A stretch of 20,949 bases of DNA. It comes from a virus. Positions 6,716 through 17,654 of this stretch are shown in pieces. The notes beneath the pieces were generated by a model. The model was not told the DNA's origin. It made no database searches and saw only the letters and a program-made list of their open reading frames with translations. The stretch covers positions 1 to 20,949 of IMG/VR virus record IMGVR_UViG_3300013094_000339; one strand, written 5' to 3'. Both the position numbers and the translations under genes were made by a program. Positions within the stretch are counted from its first letter, which is position 1, and the number at the start of each line of letters is the position of its first letter.

Positions 6716-9700
6716 TTAAACTACAATTCCCAATCCTGCTAGAGTTTGATTAATTTGTGCTGCTGTAATTGCGCTGATGATCTGTACATTGTCTGCTGTG
6801 GCTGCACTGGTCATGATTTCGTCTGGGTTGCTGTTGATTTGTAACAAGCCGCCAAAGGCAATGTTTGTACTGTTGGGTACAATGATAATACTGGCCACAT
6901 TGGGGGCCAATGTTGTGTGAAGATAGGTACTGAGCTCACTGAAGTAGAATGTATCACCAAAGTTCCAGTTAGCTGGATCAAAATAAGTGTTGATTGCTGA
7001 TATCACCCCGCTCTTAATATCGTTGTCGCTTACTGTGACATTGGGATTTTTAACTACTTTGAAAGTTGCTTGTAGGCTAGGGTCAACACCTTTTGCAGTA
7101 GAACCAAACAAAGGTTTAAACTTTCCAGTGTTGTAGACCAGTGTATCACTCATTGCTTTATAATTTTCAAGGCTAGTTGTGCCAGTACCATATTCTGTTT
7201 TTAATTCATCATTGGTTGGCAATGTTGGTTTAACTACTGTACCTGTTGTGTCTTGTATCCATGAGATATAGTTATCACTGTACTGCTTGGTCAAAATATA
7301 CAAGTCAATAATGTTGTTGGGTGCTGGGTCAATACGACGATCGTTTGGACTACCGTGTCTGTATTGAAACTGTAGATTTTGACGACCTGTTTGTGCCACA
7401 TAGTTGGTCAATAGTGTTAGTGTGCGTGTGTTGTTGTTGCTGATGCTTAACTGATAAAACGTGTTGTCAGCGGTAGCATAGAAAATTTGACCATTCAAAT
7501 ACAAATTGATGTTGGTATTGATCGCAGACAATGTTGGATATATAGACACAATCAACGCATCATCAACTGGTACTGTGGTGATAAAATTGCCTGCTCCGGT
7601 AACTTCTTGGAAATAGACATGCTTAAATGCTGAGTTAACAGTTGGATTTACAATAGTAGTAAACAGATCAGGATCATCAGGGATACCGTCGTTGTTTGTC
7701 CTAGGGAACGTTATCTTAACTTGTGTATTGTCAACATAGCCGTCTTGGTCCACTACGTTGTCATATATGTACCACAACTGATCAGTGCCCAGCGGTGTTG
7801 CGCTGTCAGCTTGACTGTTGGTCTTTAGTACTGTGACTTGATCGTTGATGGTCAAACCTGTAACGCTGTCAAAGGTCTTGACCTCTGGATCAAAGTAAAA
7901 ACGTGTTTGTCCCACGCTTTGGAACACATATTCAAGACCACGGTGTGCGATGTTATAACTGATACCATTATAGGTAAAGGCCACTAACCAGCTGCTGTCC
8001 AAACCTGCACCTGTGTTGTTGCCTTGGTTGGTCAAGCTGAATGCGCCCAAGTTTAAATCTTTGGGCAAAATAATTTGCCATGCTTGGGTGCTGACGTTGT
8101 AGGTCAAGCCAATGTTTTGATAGCTTTGTAGCAAGTTGACCACTTGGGGGATTAATGCACCAGTGCCCAGTGCATTTTTATACACAGGAATAATGCTTTC
8201 CACAACTGCACCGGTTGGGATATTTCTACTCAACTGTACAGCATAGCCTGGGTTAGAGGTAATTACGCTGGCCCAAATGTAAGATTTTTGGCTGGCGTAA
8301 ACAGGCGTACCTGATTGAATTTGATTTTGTGCATCAAAGTAATTACCAGGACCTGCATTGAATTTGATCAATGATCCTGCTGTGATGTATTTTAAATTGT
8401 TGCTTACTCCTAAGCCCACTTGCAATACTTGGTTGCTGCCATTGACAATGTAGCCAGTGCTGCTGTTTCCTGTAGCGGAGCTTTGATTCCATGATGTACT
8501 TGTAGGAGGAGTAAATCTAGGATAGTTGGCATAGTAAAACTGTTCCATTGCTGTGCTTGTAATCAATGGAGCTACAGTATTGTAAATTGTTTGATAAATG
8601 TCTTGTGCAGTCACAAAGCCAAAAGTATAGCTGCTGGTAGGACTTTGTGTGTACAACACACCGTCACTGCCATAAATGTTTGTGCTGCTGTACTTACCAG
8701 TAACGTCAAGTACATCCAAGAAACGACTTGTGCCCGAACTTGTGCGGTTAACTGCTTTGGTTTTTAAGATGCTGCTAAAGTTAGTGTAAGGGAATAGGTT
8801 GTAATCTTCCCCTGTAACCATACGGTTTTGTGTATAGTACTGTGCAGGAGCTTTGGTTCTAATGTCATCAATAGTTTCTCTAGTTTGACTATTAGACACT
8901 GTGTAGTGCAGGCTGGCGTTGATGGTTACTGTTTCCACAGCATTGTTTCTGCTGACATAACTGAAAGAGAATGCTACGTTTTGAATCTCGTCAGGAGTGA
9001 TTTTGTACTGTAGACCGTTGCTGGTTCTGTAGTATAGTCTAAACACACCGTTGGGTATGTTGGCAAAACTACCATCGCCAAACACTAGATCAACTTGATC
9101 ACCAGTGCGGCTGTTGACTTGATACAAGTTACGATTTGTGCTTTGATTGTAGATAACGTTGATACCAGCAATAGCAGGTACTTGAACCCACGAAGTAGTG
9201 GGTGCGCTGGTTGTATCCAATTGGTATAGCCAAACATCGTCGTTGTTGATGTTGTTGAAGTTTACACTGACCACACGGTTAGGCAAACTTTGACTTAGGT
9301 TAAAGTCCTGTGTGTTTAACGCACCTTGTTTGAAGTACAAAAAGTATCCAGTGTTGATACTGTTGTTCCCAAGATTGTCGTTGCGATACAGTATGTTAAA
9401 TTTGCCGCTAGGTGTTGGGGCAGGTTCGTAGATGTAGTTTTGTCCCACGCTGGTAGCACTGACTACTTCAAAGTTCATGGTACTGTCTTCAACAATGGCA
9501 TTAAAACTTTGTCTTGGCAGCACACCAGGAACCAAGTTGATGCTGTATTCATCAGTTTGTGTACCATTGATGGTGCTGCTGTTACCAGGTTTTCCAACTT
9601 GCTGATTGCTGATCAATGTGGCATTTAGAATTGTGGTAAATTGTTCTTGCCAATCTGGGTTGGCAGTATCATTCCAGTTGATCTGCAAGTTACTCAGGTT

Positions 9701-10105
9701 AAGACCGTTGCTGTCGAAGATATTTTCACTTGTGCTGATGCTGTCAATTTTTAAATAACCGCTGGCGCTGATGTTGCGTTTAGCGTTGTAGCTGATTAAA
9801 CGTGCAAGTTTGAGGATGCTGTCACGGCGTTCTGCTGTGTCAAAGAAGTTTTCGCGGGCATTCATATCGCCGCGGAAAGCCAGGCTTTGACCCAAGAAGG
9901 CAATAAGATCAATTAAAGCAATGTATTCACTGGACTCAGTAAAGTCGTTGAAATCTTCTGGGTAGTAATTACGCAAGTAATCAATCATAGTCTTGCGTAG
10001 GGTTTCAAAATCGTAGCTTTGGAAATCTGCTTGCTTAAAGGTCTGGTATAGCTGTGTCCAGTCCTGGTTTACTAATAAATTAGTCTGGCGTGTAGTTGTT
10101 GACAT
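6716..10105 (-). CDS. gp6: Baseplate wedge protein gp6 (baseplate J family), enlarged
   Basis: gp6 dimers link the wedges of the T4-type baseplate into a ring around the hub. The N-terminal part is highly typical: YDFETLRKTMIDYLRNYYPE (residues 31-50), then DFNDFTESSEYIALIDLIAF (51-70), then RGDMNARENFFDTAERRDSI (78-97). The C-terminal 150 residues, with DIKSGVISAINTYFDP and FYFSELSTYLH, resemble the usual gp6/J-family end that contacts neighbouring wedges. At 1129 residues it is about 1.7 times T4 gp6 (660), the extra length lying in the beta-rich middle. The ATG at 10103-10105 has a GGAT ribosome site (10115-10118) nine bases upstream and a late-type promoter just before it, so gp6 can be transcribed independently of gp25. 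The stop is one base from the next gene. The family call is secure; the role of the extra middle region is unknown. Confidence 0.93.
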   Translation of the reverse strand: MSTTTRQTNLLVNQDWTQLYQTFKQADFQSYDFETLRKTMIDYLRNYYPEDFNDFTESSEYIALIDLIAFLGQSLAFRGDMNARENFFDTAERRDSILKLARLISYNAKRNISASGYLKIDSISTSENIFDSNGLNLSNLQINWNDTANPDWQEQFTTILNATLISNQQVGKPGNSSTINGTQTDEYSINLVPGVLPRQSFNAIVEDSTMNFEVVSATSVGQNYIYEPAPTPSGKFNILYRNDNLGNNSINTGYFLYFKQGALNTQDFNLSQSLPNRVVSVNFNNINNDDVWLYQLDTTSAPTTSWVQVPAIAGINVIYNQSTNRNLYQVNSRTGDQVDLVFGDGSFANIPNGVFRLYYRTSNGLQYKITPDEIQNVAFSFSYVSRNNAVETVTINASLHYTVSNSQTRETIDDIRTKAPAQYYTQNRMVTGEDYNLFPYTNFSSILKTKAVNRTSSGTSRFLDVLDVTGKYSSTNIYGSDGVLYTQSPTSSYTFGFVTAQDIYQTIYNTVAPLITSTAMEQFYYANYPRFTPPTSTSWNQSSATGNSSTGYIVNGSNQVLQVGLGVSNNLKYITAGSLIKFNAGPGNYFDAQNQIQSGTPVYASQKSYIWASVITSNPGYAVQLSRNIPTGAVVESIIPVYKNALGTGALIPQVVNLLQSYQNIGLTYNVSTQAWQIILPKDLNLGAFSLTNQGNNTGAGLDSSWLVAFTYNGISYNIAHRGLEYVFQSVGQTRFYFDPEVKTFDSVTGLTINDQVTVLKTNSQADSATPLGTDQLWYIYDNVVDQDGYVDNTQVKITFPRTNNDGIPDDPDLFTTIVNPTVNSAFKHVYFQEVTGAGNFITTVPVDDALIVSIYPTLSAINTNINLYLNGQIFYATADNTFYQLSISNNNTRTLTLLTNYVAQTGRQNLQFQYRHGSPNDRRIDPAPNNIIDLYILTKQYSDNYISWIQDTTGTVVKPTLPTNDELKTEYGTGTTSLENYKAMSDTLVYNTGKFKPLFGSTAKGVDPSLQATFKVVKNPNVTVSDNDIKSGVISAINTYFDPANWNFGDTFYFSELSTYLHTTLAPNVASIIIVPNSTNIAFGGLLQINSNPDEIMTSAATADNVQIISAITAAQINQTLAGLGIVV

Positions 10106-10155: not shown

Positions 10156-10542
10156 TTAATATGGACCGTTGGTAGTAAGGTCGTTGGAATTGGCATCAAA
10201 TGTCAAACTGAGCTGTGTTGTTTGATCTGTGGGGATGTAGATCAAATCTAGCTCAATCTGTATGCCGTAATCCTGCGGTGTTATGGTAATATTGGTAATA
10301 CCTAGTCTAGGTTCGTAGCCAACAATTCTATTTACATCATCCACAATCAATTGATTCACTGTGTCATCAAGTGGTTCAAATAATAAACCCCAAATGATGC
10401 TGCCAAAGTTGGGCTGCATCAGCTTTTCGCCCTTGCGTATGCTGAAATGATTCAGCAGGTCTTGCTTAACCAAATTAATATCAGTAGCACGAAACTTTTT
10501 GCTGCGGTTTATTGTGCTGAAACCTTTGTATAGTATTGCCAT
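10156..10542 (-). CDS. gp25: Baseplate wedge protein gp25 (sheath-initiator, TssE-like)
   Basis: gp25 sits in the wedge core and nucleates the contractile sheath; relatives occur in type VI secretion (TssE) and R-type pyocins. The 128-residue length matches T4 gp25 (132). The central pattern is diagnostic: IRKGEKLMQPNFGSIIWGLL (residues 35-54), then VDDVNRIVGYEPRLGI (67-82) with the family's conserved EPR at 77-79, then a beta-strand end. The gene starts eight bases after the gp5 stop with no good Shine-Dalgarno site, so it is probably translated by reinitiation from gp5. A late-promoter-like AATAAATAC lies in that junction, oddly close to the start codon. Its place between gp5 and gp6 is the order expected in marine T4-like phages. 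No truncation is seen. Confidence 0.96.
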   Translation of the reverse strand: MAILYKGFSTINRSKKFRATDINLVKQDLLNHFSIRKGEKLMQPNFGSIIWGLLFEPLDDTVNQLIVDDVNRIVGYEPRLGITNITITPQDYGIQIELDLIYIPTDQTTQLSLTFDANSNDLTTNGPY

Positions 10543-10546
10543 ATTA

Positions 10547-10555
10547 GTATTTATT
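10547..10555 (-). promoter_or_regulatory. Late-promoter-like AATAAATAC at the gp5/gp25 junction
   Basis: The minus strand shows AATAAATAC (10555-10547), identical to the core of the two better-placed late promoters before gp48 and gp6. It includes the gp5 stop TAA and ends four bases before the gp25 ATG. A transcript starting 5-7 bases downstream would begin at or just inside the start codon, so it would be leaderless or non-functional for gp25. The shared nine bases could be chance in this AT-rich junction. Confidence 0.3.
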
Positions 10556-13500
10556 GCCCTGCATTAGCCAGTTGAATGTGTACTGGATCAGACTTGCTGA
10601 ATGTGCCACCCCAGCGTAGACCATAACTAGGCAAATCAACTGTACGTGCAATCAACGGCCCTTGGCTACTGTCAATAGCAACGCCGCTATTATGCGGGCT
10701 ACCCTTACCGCCAAGACTCTGTGGTAGTGCAGGAGTAGTAATACCGCCGGCAGTTGGATTTTCGGGTATGCGACCGCCTGCCTGTAGCCAACGTTGATAG
10801 ATAGCATCTTGATCTGCTGGGCTACGATATGCACTGGTAATAGTTATTTTGCCGCCAGATTTTGCTTTGAAGTCCTTGGCCATGTTTAGTATAGCATCTT
10901 TGAATGTACCGTTTAATTGATCAAAGTTTGCACGAGTTCCGCTTGCGCCACCGAATACAAACACATCGTCTGGATTAATACCAGTAGTATTTTCCCCGCT
11001 TAGACCAGCAGTTTGTGCAACGCTGCTGACTGCACCGCCTGCTGCCAATACGTCAATTGCATAACGACCTTGATTGTACAAATCTGCACCTTTGTATGTA
11101 GAATCCATCCAGGCTGTAGGAGTTACACCTTTACTGCGCCAATCTGCTGCACCTTGTGCTGTACGTGTTTCGTGCGCCACAAACATCATGCCTGCTGCGG
11201 TACAGACATCGTCAGTTGATTTAATCCCGCCGTTGGCCACCAATGCTGTATAGCTGGCAGTGAATTCGTTGAACTGTATAGTGTCCTGTACATTTGGACT
11301 GTTAAAGAAATCATCTTGACTTGTTATGCCGTCTCTACCAGTCCAGCTTGCAGTTTTACTCAATGTTGCTGTACCGTATTGTTTAACGGCATCTGGTTTG
11401 ATATAGCCTGCTGCGGCAAGATAAGTTGCATCCACTGCATACTTACCAATACGCTGAGCATCGCCGGATACAAAGCTATAGTTAAACTGACTTAAGAAGT
11501 AACCCAATTCTGCCATCATTGCTTTGGCTTGCTGCTGACTTAAGTTTGGAGTATTTGCTCCGAAGTTGCCCGCAGGAGTATAGGTTGTTGTTTTAGCCAT
11601 GTACTCTGCAGGGCAGGTTGGTTGCACCAATGATTGGCCTGCTGCATCAGTAATGCCCGCGTCTCCGCTGGTCACAGGTTTACCACTGGCGTCAGTAATA
11701 GGTTTACCGCTACCGTCTACAACGGCACCAGCTGGTGCGACTTGTCCCGATTCTCCTGCGTTGGCTAGTGCTTGCTGTACAACAGGCAACCACTTGGCTG
11801 CTGCTAGACCAACACTTGCTGCGGTAATACTGCCGTCGCTGGATTGTAACGATTTGTTTTGATTGGCAACGTTGCTGCCTGCAGGTGCAATGATATAGTC
11901 ATCAGGTTTGCCCACTGCCGCTGGCCAGAAAATACAGTTATACAAGTCTTGCAGTTTAGGAGTAGGTGCTTTGCTGGTAAATTTAAAGTACTGATAAAAC
12001 TTTGATACCCAATCCAACTGATCTACACGACTTAATTCTTTTAGTGCATCTGTAGTTGTGCCCAATGCTTTGGCTGTAGGAGGTACAAATTGTATTAGAC
12101 CTGTAGCACCAATACTGTTGACCAATGCAGGATCATATGTCGCATCAGTTTCATTGGCCATACAAGCCAGCAGATCAATATAGTTACAGTTGAGGCTTTG
12201 TGCAACAGATTTAACTTTATCAATAAAGGCTTTGTCAGTTGACCAAGGAGTTGGTACACCTTTGACTTTACCATTATCTTTGGTATTGCCGTTGGCTGCT
12301 GGCAATGTGTAGTTGGTGGGTGTTCCTGCTGTTCTAGGAGCGCACACGCTGCTACTTACTGATTTAGTTGTAGCAGCCGGTTTGCCCGTACGTGTCCAAG
12401 GCTCGTGGCTTGGTAGTATTGTGACAACACTGTCAACACTCTGCGGAACGCTGTACCACAGTTTGGTTGTTTTATCGTCAAATGTTGTGTCTGCGAGTTT
12501 ATTCTTTTCCAATGTGGGCATACTGATGCTGTTGCCGCCTGCACCGCCGTTGATGTCAATAGTACTGCCGCTTACTGTCATAGCGCCGCCGCTGCTCGCC
12601 GTCAGTTTGCCATCAGCACTCATAACAAGTTGCCCGGCACCAATGCTAGTTTTAGCTCCGTAGATCAACAAAGTTTCGCTACCACCAAGATTAACTTGTG
12701 CGGCATTAAGCGTATAACTGGTCTCGCTGACCATGTTGATACTGCCGCCACTGTGTATGTTAATGCCTTTATCAGCGTGTAGGTTAAACACACCCTCTGC
12801 TCTGACACTATAGTCTCCGGCAGTATAGGCTTTGACTCCAGTTTCGTCTATTTCCAACCAACTGGTTCCATCCTTGTGTGCAAAGTAAATAACGCTTTCG
12901 CTATCATTCATCAACAGTTGATGACCACCAGCTGTACGGAAACGCATAAGCTGATCTTTACCGCTGGTGTCGCCGTCGTCCATTACAAAACTATGACCAC
13001 CTTTACGTGTGGGCACAGCATATTGATCTAGGGTGATGCTACCACTGTTGACTTTGTTTTCATATTCTGGGTCATCTGCTGGATCCTTAGTCAGCGCACG
13101 ACCAGGGGTACTAATACCAAATACATGACTAGGTGTTTCTCTTTGTGCGCTGCTACTGATAGCACCGCGAACGCCGTCTCTATCCAAACCTTGTTTGAAC
13201 AGTATGTTTGCTTGAAATTCGTGTATGGGCTTTTTGTTGTTGTAAAATACGCTGTTCAATGACCCATCGATGTTTTCATTGAATTCTGCAACAGGCAATA
13301 CTTGTGGCGGCACATTTGTGTCGGGCAAAATGCTGGCTTTAATGTCTGCACTTACAGTAGTCTTGTCTACATTGGCTGAACTTGCTGCCACGGCGGGAGT
13401 CATCCAGTTACTGACACCTGCTTGCACACAGGCAAACCAAAAGCCACGCTCAGGATCGCCGTTGACAAAAGTACACAAGACCTGATTGCCAACATCTGGG

Positions 13501-13799
13501 GGTGTCATCCACATACCATAGGTATGAACTACGCCAGTAAAATTGTTGTTCTGACTGCTCTCAGGCTGATAAGTGCTGCCCATGTAGGGATTGGCATAAC
13601 TGACTGTACGCCAAAATAGCGAGTTGTTTTCGTCGCCGCCAAAGTCCGGAATCCATACACGCAAACGACCATCACGAGCAGCACTTAGATTGTCTTTAAC
13701 AATACCCAGCTGTGTGGCTGTATCATATCTGACACCAGGTACTTTGTCCCTATCATAATATTTAGAAAATCTTGAACTGTAAACGTTATTTTGTGCCAT
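10551..13799 (-). CDS. gp5: Baseplate hub spike gp5 with multiple cell-wall-degrading modules
   Basis: This is the central tail spike, which pierces the outer membrane and opens peptidoglycan. At 1082 residues it is nearly twice T4 gp5 (575). Visible parts, in order: an OB-fold domain (about 25-135, with GDPERGFWFACV at 114-125); a VgrG-like beta-helix (about 265-425, short G-x-h repeats); a lytic-transglycosylase-like domain (about 520-680, candidate catalytic Glu550 in ANETDATYDP, then GATGLIQF at 564-571); a Gly/Asp/Ala-rich linker (about 685-725); a muramidase-like module (about 745-925, IGKYAVD at 784-790, SWTGRDGI at 818-825, VAHE); and a C-terminal M15-type peptidase (about 955-1082, SAYRSP at 989-994, SPHNSGVAID at 1034-1043, DPVHIQ at 1071-1076, giving candidate zinc ligands His1036, Asp1043 and His1074). 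In T4 the lysozyme lies between OB fold and beta-helix; here all enzyme modules follow the helix. The start lies three bases after the hub-gene stop with only a weak GAG site, suggesting coupling. Confidence 0.92.
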   Translation of the reverse strand: MAQNNVYSSRFSKYYDRDKVPGVRYDTATQLGIVKDNLSAARDGRLRVWIPDFGGDENNSLFWRTVSYANPYMGSTYQPESSQNNNFTGVVHTYGMWMTPPDVGNQVLCTFVNGDPERGFWFACVQAGVSNWMTPAVAASSANVDKTTVSADIKASILPDTNVPPQVLPVAEFNENIDGSLNSVFYNNKKPIHEFQANILFKQGLDRDGVRGAISSSAQRETPSHVFGISTPGRALTKDPADDPEYENKVNSGSITLDQYAVPTRKGGHSFVMDDGDTSGKDQLMRFRTAGGHQLLMNDSESVIYFAHKDGTSWLEIDETGVKAYTAGDYSVRAEGVFNLHADKGINIHSGGSINMVSETSYTLNAAQVNLGGSETLLIYGAKTSIGAGQLVMSADGKLTASSGGAMTVSGSTIDINGGAGGNSISMPTLEKNKLADTTFDDKTTKLWYSVPQSVDSVVTILPSHEPWTRTGKPAATTKSVSSSVCAPRTAGTPTNYTLPAANGNTKDNGKVKGVPTPWSTDKAFIDKVKSVAQSLNCNYIDLLACMANETDATYDPALVNSIGATGLIQFVPPTAKALGTTTDALKELSRVDQLDWVSKFYQYFKFTSKAPTPKLQDLYNCIFWPAAVGKPDDYIIAPAGSNVANQNKSLQSSDGSITAASVGLAAAKWLPVVQQALANAGESGQVAPAGAVVDGSGKPITDASGKPVTSGDAGITDAAGQSLVQPTCPAEYMAKTTTYTPAGNFGANTPNLSQQQAKAMMAELGYFLSQFNYSFVSGDAQRIGKYAVDATYLAAAGYIKPDAVKQYGTATLSKTASWTGRDGITSQDDFFNSPNVQDTIQFNEFTASYTALVANGGIKSTDDVCTAAGMMFVAHETRTAQGAADWRSKGVTPTAWMDSTYKGADLYNQGRYAIDVLAAGGAVSSVAQTAGLSGENTTGINPDDVFVFGGASGTRANFDQLNGTFKDAILNMAKDFKAKSGGKITITSAYRSPADQDAIYQRWLQAGGRIPENPTAGGITTPALPQSLGGKGSPHNSGVAIDSSQGPLIARTVDLPSYGLRWGGTFSKSDPVHIQLANAGQ

Positions 13800-13802
13800 T
13801 TA

Positions 13803-16460
13803 TTATCTCGTGATTGCTGCAAGTATGTTTTGTTGCGTTTGCGCCAGTGTTGGTGCAGATTTAGCTACTTCTGCAAGTTTTTTGTCTGTTGCATTGTTGA
13901 CTATATCTCCAGAGAAGGCTGCGTCCAAATCTGATCCTGTGGCTGTGCCTAACTTGACCGCTGCATCTGATGCTGCTGCTGGTGCGGTAGTTGCCGTAGT
14001 AGTTTGCGTATCGGGTGCTGTAGTTTTAGCACGATCCAAATCTGATTTAGATACTCGGGGGCTGTTGGCTTTTTGTTCTGCGGTAGTTGTCTTTTTACGT
14101 TCGGCGTCGCCCAACGAGGTTACGCTATCATTGGCCTTGCTCTTATTGACAGAATCCTGCATTGGGTATCTGACCAAGTTTAGTGTTTGAACAAATTTAC
14201 CAGATTTAAACTCGCTATTTACTGTAATTACTCTATAAAATCCACTGAACTCACTAACTCGATATTTACTACTATCTAAATTATACAATCCGCTGCTGTC
14301 ACTGAAGTCAGTTGGTGTTCTAAATGTCAAGTAGCAGCAAATTTCTCCTGTGTCCATTGCAAGACTTCTAGTGCCAGGAACGTAAGGATCATCATTGGCC
14401 TTGTTATTGTTTAGTTTGTTGATCACTGCCGGACTAATAAACAAGTCATCCTGTTTGATGAATTCAGGATCTCCCAAAATTTGCAATCGTACACTGATCA
14501 TATCCCCGCCAGCAGTGGTGTATATGCTGTTCAATGCACTTTTAGCGTTGATGGTTTCGCTACGATTAACTGCGCCACCTGCCCCAGTTGATTGATCGTT
14601 GGCTACCACGTGCCTAGTCTCAGGCTGAATTTGATGATTATTTGCCGCGCTATCTGGTTTGTTCTTTTCTTGCTGATCTTCTGGTTTACTGTTTGCACCA
14701 GTTGTGGCATTTGTTTTACCACGATCAACATCAATGGCAGTATAGTACAAGGCATTGAATTCAATGTCAAAGCCAATCACGCTACTGTTTTGACCAGTGT
14801 AAAGATAATCGTAGCGTTTTACTGGTGTAGGCGGAGGACTCTTGGGCAAACGATCATCACGTTGTTGATACACATTGTAGGTGCTGATATAGAATGTAAT
14901 GGTCTTGCCCCAAACATTTCGTTCAGAGTCAAACTCACCTAATTCTATGCTGGGCACAATTTTCCATAATTTTACAGGTGTTGCCTGCTGTTGAACTACA
15001 TCGCCTCCGCTAGATTTTCCAGTGGATGTTTTTGAGGTAGTTGAAGAATCTATAGCTTGATTCAAAAAGTATTCGCTTTGAGGAATGACCAAGTTTATGA
15101 TATCGTTAACTCTAGTGCCTGCTTCTAAATCATGTATTACCGAATCAAAGTTTGCAGTTTTAGCATCTTTACCGTCATTGGCTTTGGCTGTATCTGCTGC
15201 GCCTGTTGCAGATACACGTCTGACACTGGATTTTTTCTGATCTACAATTTTAGAGTTTCTTATGGCATCATCCAAGAATACAAATTTTATTTGATCTGCA
15301 AATCCTATGTTGCCATTTTTAACTTGCGATTTAAACCAAGCATTGTAGGCGGCAACAAAACTTTTAGCATTAACCACTATAGGAGGTTGATCTACACTGT
15401 CAGACTTTTTGTTTGGTTCTCGTGATGTGGATTTAGGACTAGCATAGTATATAAATGCGCCGCCCTGTGTTGTAACTCCCTTTTGTCCATTGTTGGGAGT
15501 GGTGTCAGATTTTGGCGGTGGGGTTTTACGTTTTTTATCTTCTGCTATTGCAGCATCAACTGACTTAGTGGTTGCATCATCTATATCAGAGCTGAAATAA
15601 TCTGCCACAGTGGTCGCAGTTACATTCATACGAGTTTTGATACTTTGCACAGTTTCCAAATTTGCGCTGTGATTAAATGGGCAAGCATCAATACTGTACT
15701 CTGAACCTTTAACTCCTGCTTTGATCTTCATGGATAACAATTTAATAGGTATCCATTTGGTTTGATTGTCTATTATTTTTGAATTGCCTTTTTCATCTGC
15801 TCCGAAAAAGTTAATCTCTAGCAGATAGGGCATTTCTACATAGTTTTTACCGTTTAAGCCTGTGTTATTAATTTCAAGCAAACGATCCATCAAGGTCATG
15901 CCGTAGGGCTCTATGATGGTAAACTTGATATTGATAGCATTGGTTCCACGTGTATGGGCGTTTTGTCCGATGACTGTTTCCATGCTGAGATTTTCAAAGT
16001 AAAAATCTTCACTGAATGCAGGATCTCTGCCAGTATTTTTAAACGAACGTGGGCCTGTAGCTACAAAGTCAGTACTTCTGTATCTACCTGCACTACTAAT
16101 TAAAGTCTTTGATGGCTTAAATGTTGTAGGTGAAGTTACCAATGTGTTGTAATCGTCTCTAGTCAATACATGTAGTGTAAGACCGTAGGTATAGTTAGTG
16201 TATTGATCCAGTGGATTAGAAGAAGGGGCATAAGTTTTTTCTTTGTTACCGCCTAGCCCTGTTGTTTTCTTTACACTGGGTGCATCAGTTGCGGCCGCTG
16301 CTTCAGTTCTATCAAAAGTTGCCAACTGCTGTGCAGCATTGCCACGCCCGCCACCGTAGGTTGAGTTGGTTAAATTTACACCCGTAATATTTTGTACTTG
16401 ATTAGTGACGTTGTGCGCCAGATGTTCAATTTCATCTGGGTTCAATGGAGTTGTTGCCAT
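13803..16460 (-). CDS. Probable baseplate hub protein (gp27 position), 885 residues
   Basis: It is encoded between gp53 and gp5, where a partner of the gp5 spike is expected. I do not recognise the whole protein, but several stretches look like tail-hub proteins: SNPLDQYTNYTYGLTLHV (residues 81-98), a beta-rich domain ending in YSIDACPFNHSA (255-266), MISVRLQILGDPEFIKQDD (654-672), and FSGFYRVITVNSEFKSGKF (738-756). The GDP-F-I and G-Y-V...F-G-F patterns recall gp27/gpD-type hub proteins, which form the ring above the spike. Long Lys/Ser/Thr/Ala-rich, probably disordered, segments separate the folded parts (about 300-360, 410-435, 470-490, 580-640), and the last 115 residues are Ala/Thr-rich. 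At 885 residues it is more than twice T4 gp27 (391). The start has GGGG seven bases upstream. The hub assignment is inference from position and motifs. Confidence 0.6.
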   Translation of the reverse strand: MATTPLNPDEIEHLAHNVTNQVQNITGVNLTNSTYGGGRGNAAQQLATFDRTEAAAATDAPSVKKTTGLGGNKEKTYAPSSNPLDQYTNYTYGLTLHVLTRDDYNTLVTSPTTFKPSKTLISSAGRYRSTDFVATGPRSFKNTGRDPAFSEDFYFENLSMETVIGQNAHTRGTNAINIKFTIIEPYGMTLMDRLLEINNTGLNGKNYVEMPYLLEINFFGADEKGNSKIIDNQTKWIPIKLLSMKIKAGVKGSEYSIDACPFNHSANLETVQSIKTRMNVTATTVADYFSSDIDDATTKSVDAAIAEDKKRKTPPPKSDTTPNNGQKGVTTQGGAFIYYASPKSTSREPNKKSDSVDQPPIVVNAKSFVAAYNAWFKSQVKNGNIGFADQIKFVFLDDAIRNSKIVDQKKSSVRRVSATGAADTAKANDGKDAKTANFDSVIHDLEAGTRVNDIINLVIPQSEYFLNQAIDSSTTSKTSTGKSSGGDVVQQQATPVKLWKIVPSIELGEFDSERNVWGKTITFYISTYNVYQQRDDRLPKSPPPTPVKRYDYLYTGQNSSVIGFDIEFNALYYTAIDVDRGKTNATTGANSKPEDQQEKNKPDSAANNHQIQPETRHVVANDQSTGAGGAVNRSETINAKSALNSIYTTAGGDMISVRLQILGDPEFIKQDDLFISPAVINKLNNNKANDDPYVPGTRSLAMDTGEICCYLTFRTPTDFSDSSGLYNLDSSKYRVSEFSGFYRVITVNSEFKSGKFVQTLNLVRYPMQDSVNKSKANDSVTSLGDAERKKTTTAEQKANSPRVSKSDLDRAKTTAPDTQTTTATTAPAAASDAAVKLGTATGSDLDAAFSGDIVNNATDKKLAEVAKSAPTLAQTQQNILAAITR

Positions 16461-16461
16461 A

Positions 16462-16767
16462 TTATAGCCCCAGGTTGTCTGCTAGTGTTGTTTTCTTAGG
16501 AATCATAATAGTAACTCCCGCGACAAAATCAAAAATAGGATCATCAATAACGTTGGGATTACGTGCGCGGAACACCCACCACAAGGCACTGTTGCCGTAC
16601 AAGTCAAAGGCCAACAAGTCTGGTCTATATTGATAAATTCCGTTGATGGTAAAACTTACATCGTCTACTTGTTTGTCTATAGTTCTAGTTTCCAGTATAT
16701 CCAGAAACTTGCCCCCGAACAAGTTAGTTTCAAAATAAGGACTAGCTTTAGAATATTCAACTGTCAT
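16462..16767 (-). CDS. gp53: Baseplate wedge protein gp53 (LysM-like)
   Basis: gp53 joins the wedge late and clamps neighbouring wedges together around the hub. The 101-residue protein shows the LysM-like core of the gp53/tail-protein-X group: YQYRPDLLAFDLYGNSALWW (about residues 46-65), then VFRARNPN, then FDFVAGVTIMIPK near the end. T4 gp53 is about twice as long, but short versions fit the domain. Its ATG overlaps the gp48 stop as ATGA (16767-16764), and a GGTGGA ribosome site lies inside the end of gp48. Its own stop lies one base before the hub-gene ATG, so the three genes are very probably translated as a coupled set. No anomaly is seen. Confidence 0.87.
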   Translation of the reverse strand: MTVEYSKASPYFETNLFGGKFLDILETRTIDKQVDDVSFTINGIYQYRPDLLAFDLYGNSALWWVFRARNPNVIDDPIFDFVAGVTIMIPKKTTLADNLGL

Positions 16768-17654
16768 AGGAATCCACCATTATTCTTCAATAGATTGCCT
16801 TGACTAAACTGTGTCAATGTCATGTTGTTGGCAATATTTTTTCTACTGTACACTGGTTGTAGTGTAACTGAAATTTGACTAGTTGTAGGCAATCTAGCAA
16901 TGTGTGGACCGTTTTTAAATTCCAAGTAGTCAACTTCTGAGGGCATGGTATGTTGGAAACCTGTCACAACACAGCTGACATGTGGGAAGTAATAATCGCC
17001 ATATCCGTCTAGATAAACTATGGGCGGCGGATTACCTGCCAGTTTGTCTTTACCAAAAAACATCTTTGTGCTGGATCTAAAGAAATGTATTGCAGCCAAC
17101 AAGTATATGGCGTCATCATGGTTTTGTACAGTAAAGTCGCCTTGTATTTGAATAGCAGATACATCGCTGCCATCATAGAAATATTGTTTGTAGTTACTGT
17201 GTGTCAGTGCTTGTTCTTGATATCTTGCTGTGTGGGTTACACTGATGGTCGGAGTGTAGGGAAATATAACACCTTTGGTACGTCCCAACACTGATAAAAA
17301 GTTGTTGCTGGTGTCTTTGTAGAATAAACTACTGCTGTCAGGTAAACTGATGCGCACACGCCAATCAGAACCTGATGCTTTGGTTGGTACTGCTCCACCC
17401 AAACCATTGATCTGTACAGTGGGCGCTGCTTGTGTTTGTTTGGAAAACAAACTAGACACGCCTCCAGACAGTAGACCAGAGATCTTAGTGCGTAAATTTT
17501 GAGGGTCAATGGCACCTATTAGTGCATCAACTACACCAGGTTTTTGATACTGCGCCGCTGCTTGAGCAAATAAGTTGGTGCCGGCACTTGCATTGGCTGC
17601 TGCCGTTGCGTCTGCTGCTGCCGCTTCTGAGCCAGCTGATGGTAATAAAGGCAT
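16764..17654 (-). CDS. gp48: Baseplate tail-tube protein, gp48/gp54 type
   Basis: In T4, gp54 and gp48 sit on the assembled baseplate and start growth of the tail tube. The first 45 residues are Ala-rich and probably flexible. The folded part has the typical order: GVIFPYTPTISVTHTARYQE (residues 128-147), then IQIQGDFTVQNHDDAIYLLA (168-187), then PPPIVYLDGYGDYYFPHVSC (209-228), then the MPSEVDYLEF region (237-246). At 296 residues it is close to T4 gp54 (320) and shorter than gp48 (364). Only one such gene is present here, so it may do both jobs or its paralogue may lie elsewhere; the symbol follows usual naming in T4-like marine phages and is less certain than the family. It is the first gene of the leftward block, with GGAT at 17667-17664 and a late-type promoter just upstream. 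Confidence 0.82.
   Translation of the reverse strand: MPLLPSAGSEAAAADATAAANASAGTNLFAQAAAQYQKPGVVDALIGAIDPQNLRTKISGLLSGGVSSLFSKQTQAAPTVQINGLGGAVPTKASGSDWRVRISLPDSSSLFYKDTSNNFLSVLGRTKGVIFPYTPTISVTHTARYQEQALTHSNYKQYFYDGSDVSAIQIQGDFTVQNHDDAIYLLAAIHFFRSSTKMFFGKDKLAGNPPPIVYLDGYGDYYFPHVSCVVTGFQHTMPSEVDYLEFKNGPHIARLPTTSQISVTLQPVYSRKNIANNMTLTQFSQGNLLKNNGGFL

Follow-up and report, generated by a model that had tools for sequence, protein, structure and literature searches.

A phage central spike with predicted wall enzymes behind its beta-helix and a lysozyme-fold module that is probably non-catalytic

Introduction

The central spike protein of phage T4, gp5, combines an OB fold, a triple beta-helix and a wall enzyme in a single polypeptide, with the lysozyme placed between the OB fold and the helix. 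A 20,949-base viral fragment (the window, i.e., the whole stretch of DNA analysed here) encodes a spike with the same three kinds of parts, but its enzymes come from other families and appear to follow the needle. This raises the question of what a needle with several wall-enzyme modules behind it might do and whether all of these modules still work as enzymes. Parts of such an arrangement are known from elsewhere: a helix-then-lysozyme order was reported in 2013 for gp078 of phage RaK2 (PMC3622015), delivery of an enzyme on the C-terminus of a spike that also has a peptidoglycan-binding part has been demonstrated for VgrG3cp (PMC9927483), and domain shuffling is well documented in phage lysins and tail proteins (PMC10684548).

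Results

The spike gene lies among baseplate genes of a probable jumbo myovirus

The reading frame of the spike gene is intact, its close homologues share the same layout, and it is surrounded by genes on the same strand:

6716-10105, minus strand: gp6 match, baseplate
10156-10542, minus strand: gp25 match, baseplate
10551..13799, minus strand: spike gene, 1082 amino acids plus stop
13803-16460, minus strand: 885-residue virion protein without Pfam match, adjoining the spike gene
16462-16767, minus strand: gp53 match, baseplate
16764-17654, minus strand: 296-residue virion protein

The 885-residue protein is possibly a hub partner of the spike. Beyond the baseplate genes, the plus strand encodes a late sigma factor resembling gp55 and a protein resembling SbcD. 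Since the arrangement of gp25, gp6, gp53 and the late sigma factor around the spike resembles that of PA5oct and XaC1 and the cultured phages that match best mostly have genomes of 280-490 kb, the sequence suggests that the spike probably belongs to a jumbo myovirus of the RaK2/PA5oct type. None of the cultured phage records covers 80% of the spike protein in one place. The host is presumed to be Gram-negative. A search of genome contigs for a host link gave a single match, a Rickettsiales metagenome-assembled genome (L098; 33% identity to the N-terminal part), which is too weak to name a host.

The enzymes follow the beta-helix

Each part of the spike was assigned by combining sequence families, AlphaFold2 models and solved structures, which confirmed a gp5/VgrG-type protein with the order OB fold, beta-helix, SLT-type lytic transglycosylase (LT), a second module of LT/goose-lysozyme fold (M2) and M15 peptidase:

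13410..13727, minus strand: OB domain, residues about 25-130
12420..13007, minus strand: beta-helix needle, residues about 265-460
11760..12278, minus strand: LT, residues 508-680
12150..12152, minus strand: Glu550, predicted catalytic residue of the LT
11025..11597, minus strand: M2, residues 735-925, probably non-catalytic
11493..11495, minus strand: Leu769, where M2 homologues mostly have a catalytic-type Glu
11436..11438, minus strand: Ala788, at the motif II Gln position of M2
11163..11165, minus strand: Arg879, at the motif III Gly of M2 (HLLGxGG)
10554..10979, minus strand: M15-type peptidase, residues 941-1082
10692..10694, minus strand: His1036, zinc ligand of the HxxxxxxD motif
10671..10673, minus strand: Asp1043, zinc ligand
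10578..10589, minus strand: Asp1071-Pro-Val-His1074, with the catalytic Asp and the third zinc ligand as assigned by comparison with M15 endolysins

The OB domain matches PF04717 (E 4e-7), and the OB domain and helix together match phrog_13211 over residues 24-421 (E 5e-28). In structural comparison, residues about 19-387 resemble the VgrG spikes of contractile injection systems (Z 8.9), and relatives have PF10106/PF22178 matches at the position of the beta-helix. A region of beta-strands (residues about 270-460) precedes the enzyme modules in the model, with no strands over residues 327-431 of the helix region in this monomer prediction. The phrog_13211 span and the strands lying before the enzymes exclude a T4-like domain order; residues 130-265 have no enzyme match. 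The coordinates and residues named in an earlier note on this DNA proved correct, and models and domain searches, which it had suggested as a check, placed enzyme folds across residues 508-1082 with the beta-helix ahead of them. RaK2 gp078, PHROG 13211 and evolved VgrGs share the order of OB fold, helix and enzyme, and we accordingly rejected the notion of a unique rearrangement. Low-confidence linkers separate the modules (residues 476-495, 687-711 and 922-933), and the placement of the modules cannot be read from the whole-protein model, which has a pTM of 0.42.

A PAAR tip protein gene was seen far from the spike gene in the phage with spike L092 (L099, the 302 kb record G005); among the records examined it was present only in this genome and absent from five others, all of which are fragments.

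One glycan-cutting and one peptide-cutting activity are predicted

The first module behind the needle agrees with the transglycosylase-like domain around Glu550 proposed earlier. Residues 522-667 match PDB 9udh (E 2e-25), for which our literature search found no descriptive paper, and align with it structurally at Z 19.6 (40% identity, rmsd 2.1 over 147 residues); phrog_4928 and phrog_196 are further matches. Both the fold and the GLxQ motif are present, the latter as a conserved GLIQF, and Glu550 is aligned with the FET of 9udh and invariant in close relatives. The LT is thus predicted from its sequence to cut glycan strands.

The peptidase at the C-terminus likewise bears out the original assignment. 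It matches the endolysin family phrog_2649 (E 2e-12) and, below the cut-off of 25 bits, PF02557 (E 2.7e-4, 21.2 bits), and its structural matches include Ply500 (Z 9.4) and VanY-type folds. The M15 fold, the HxxxxxxD motif and the DxxH motif are all present, with His1036, Asp1043, Asp1071 and His1074 invariant in a seven-row alignment, and the module is predicted to cut stem peptides in a zinc-dependent manner. A tblastn search with this module gave no match in 50,697 phage records. The families, folds and residues of the LT and M15 modules together uphold the expectation of one glycan-cutting and one peptide-cutting activity. A 2017 review names just one endopeptidase, P5 of phi6, as demonstrated among the virion lysins of phages infecting Gram-negative bacteria (PMC5380687); the window spike combines two predicted enzymes, one against glycan and one against peptide, on a single myovirus needle.

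The spike C-terminus forms a cassette with a variable slot

Viral contigs yielded 286 relatives, of which 80 were kept; the non-redundant set comprises 67 spikes, or 63 without fragments and with the window included. Four layouts occur: OB-helix only, OB-helix-M2, OB-helix-M2-M15 and OB-helix-slot-M2-M15, where the slot is the position directly before M2. From these sequences, the C-terminal part of the spike is a cassette in which M2 is widespread, the preceding slot variable and M15 optional. The slot is empty in 25 spikes and holds the LT in the group of the window, a GH19-like domain (phrog_181) in L042, L052, L054 and L076, or an endolysin-like domain (phrog_30077) in L044, L045, L047 and L071. 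Because L042 and L047 fall among LT-bearing spikes in a tree of the N-terminal part, exchange of the slot enzyme has taken place. The suggestion that the host wall is particularly hard to breach found no support, as close kin vary these modules freely.

Two spikes are longer still. In L043 (6001-10386; 1462 residues), the LT is followed by a stretch resembling a GDSL lipase (Pfam E 0.001, below cut-off), and then come M2, M15 and an additional C-terminal part. In L047 (5977-9831; 1285 residues), a weak match of GDSL-lipase type lies behind M15.

M2 of the window has kept its fold and lost active-site motif residues

The remaining module was described earlier as muramidase-like and wall-active; the fold stands, while the activity is doubtful. 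An AlphaFold2 model of M2 alone has a pLDDT of 93.9, and all 50 structural matches listed are lytic transglycosylases or related enzymes of the lysozyme superfamily (best Z 11.7), including Cj0843, MltE, MltF, Slt and goose lysozyme at Z 8.8-11.7. Foldseek alone gave only weak matches (best E 0.15), so the assignment leans on the structural aligner and on the motifs of homologues. Among these, the gp5 proteins of Pootjesviridae (phiM9, RL38J1, Atu_ph04; best tblastn E 1e-11) have an M2 homologue with intact motifs, yet as a central module before the beta-helix region, like the enzyme of T4, whereas M2 of the window lies after it. We take the ES, GxYQ and HLLGxGG motifs of the M2 homologues to correspond to active-site motifs I, II and III of the SLT family.

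All three are altered in the window, as seen in an alignment of 60 modules that splits into 30 slot-empty and reference rows and 30 slot-filled rows. Glu is found at position 769 in 28 of the 30 slot-empty and reference rows, Gln at 788 in 29 and Gly at 879 in all 30; M2 of L062 is an example with canonical motifs. Slot-filled rows have Glu at 769 in 20 of 30, Gln at 788 in 15 of 30 and Arg at 879 in 29 of 30. The window has the LT/goose-lysozyme fold with Leu769 in place of the catalytic Glu, along with Ala788 and Arg879, and to judge from its sequence M2 is probably not an enzyme. Loss of the glycine loop alone is no proof of inactivity, given that two thirds of the slot-filled modules keep the Glu. 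Position 769 is Glu in all six gp5 sequences of rhizobial phages and in L005, whereas the window and L002 have Leu, L006 has Val, and L027 and L049 have Ile; across lineages, Leu, Val, Ile, Gln or Ser replaces it, with seven changes of state on the N-terminal tree. Since close relatives vary between Leu, Ile and Val while L005 still has Glu, the loss is both recent and repeated.

Repeated loss of catalytic-type residues is also what would be expected if M2 were a decaying remnant without function, which we regard as very improbable: pairs of Glu-less modules have dN/dS of about 0.04-0.12, similar to the LT and to Glu-bearing M2, although these values are rough because dS is mostly above 1 or saturated. 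These estimates, rough as they are, indicate purifying selection on Glu-less modules of full length and intact fold, and a degenerate M2 is kept even as a separate gene in some relatives (see below). Lost motif residues together with low dN/dS suggest that M2 is maintained, but probably not for catalysis.

Retention of the complete fold under strong constraint could also mean that all three modules are active and that M2 uses another acid or a mechanism without the usual Glu. Glu764, five residues before position 769 and invariant in close relatives, might by its position substitute for the missing residue, and the Glu retained in many slot-filled relatives points the same way. We nevertheless consider this reading unlikely because the window departs from the usual residues in each of the three LT motifs and because the replacement of Glu by different residues in different lineages resembles relaxed catalysis. 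A claim of three active enzymes was therefore downgraded after the M2 alignment.

Filled slots and lost glycine loops coincide in few events

Of 30 slot-filled spikes, 29 lack the glycine loop of M2, while 25 of 25 slot-empty ones keep it. The N-terminal tree, however, has three changes in slot filling and two in loop loss, an AU test does not reject one clade of all slot-filled spikes (p 0.07), and the link is represented by one supported independent pair. A tree of M2 that leaves out the active-site columns separates the slot-filled modules into two supported clades and the outlier L092. The link is a pattern that rests on one to three events and not a statistical proof, and with so few events shared ancestry could explain it. 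A test for a statistical association was underpowered.

Some relatives carry M2 or an M2-like domain outside the spike

The spikes of L081, L082, L084, L086 and L088 are enzyme-less, and an adjacent gene encodes a domain resembling M2 (E about 1e-19 to 1e-17), which lacks the ES motif in the four examined. In L081 (7461-9002), for instance, a spike of 501 residues is followed by a gene for 513 residues with the degenerate domain. We identified no active partner enzyme in this group. In L091 (2876-5941), the M2 of the spike itself is degenerate and the upstream gene has an intact-looking canonical M2 at its N-terminus. Both cases fit the idea that M2 stays on in a non-catalytic role after a different enzyme has taken over the cutting.

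Enzyme-less spikes such as these and that of PA5oct (477 residues), along with the low-confidence linkers of the window spike, would also suit a scheme in which cleavage or folding back removes the C-terminal modules from the tip ahead of penetration, leaving a bare beta-helix as the working needle. This seems to us somewhat less likely even than three active modules, as more than 40 non-redundant relatives keep the modules fused behind the helix and we recognised no known cleavage site in the spike.

Discussion

We favour a puncturing spike whose LT and M15 modules cut the wall and whose M2 is retired as an enzyme yet kept, and we consider this explanation probable. It builds on the gene layout, folds, active-site residues, conservation and slot exchange read from sequences and models. 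The needle of OB folds and beta-helix would consist of three chains, with three copies each of LT, M2 and M15 hanging by flexible linkers from its far end. Contraction of the sheath would drive the needle across the outer membrane and bring the cluster of modules into the periplasm, where the LT may cut glycan strands and M15 stem peptides to open the wall for the tube. M2 would descend from the one enzyme of lysozyme fold that is found by itself in many relatives and, having lost its catalytic-type residues, would most likely be kept as a wall-binding or scaffolding domain, while the slot before it takes interchangeable wall enzymes. More generally, the needle tip may be an exchangeable enzyme rack on which an ancestral muramidase was repeatedly turned into a non-catalytic wall-gripping or scaffold domain, maintained by selection, once a second glycan-cutter had entered the slot or another part of the hub, a tentative generalisation to which we give slightly less than even credence.

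Delivery into the periplasm is the likeliest role of the needle by analogy with VgrG3cp of V. cholerae, an evolved VgrG that likewise has an enzyme on the C-terminus of the spike. Action in the periplasm is a property of VgrG3cp, which differs as a T6SS weapon with an immunity protein and a pesticin-like enzyme and has neither M15 nor an LT pair. The gene neighbourhood of the window spike is formed by the phage baseplate genes gp25, gp6 and gp53 instead of a T6SS context with an immunity gene.

Enzyme-tipped needles and an order other than that of T4 were thus already known, and what appears new against the searched literature is the set of LT, M2 and M15, the swappable slot and the retired module; we found no precedent for these on a phage spike in the papers and databases searched. 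With its homologous needles that have either no enzyme or varying ones, the series offers a way to ask how wall enzymes are matched to hosts and why an enzyme is retained after its retirement.

The nearest phage counterparts show how the enzymes vary on comparable needles. RaK2 gp078 and PHROG 13211 (jumbo-phage baseplate hub, tail lysozyme) have a homologous OB domain and helix and also carry their enzyme after the helix, but this is one C-terminal lysozyme of GH24 type, whereas the window has LT, M2 and M15 instead and no match to PF00959, the family of GH24-type lysozymes. The hub of Vibrio phage 2.275.O (L017:5001-7652) has two wall-enzyme matches after the helix as in the window, though these are a weak M23 peptidase match and a GH24 lysozyme. 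In the Xanthomonas phage XaC1, a separate gene for a GH24-type lysozyme (L018:7632-8120) directly follows a spike gene with a lysozyme-like end.
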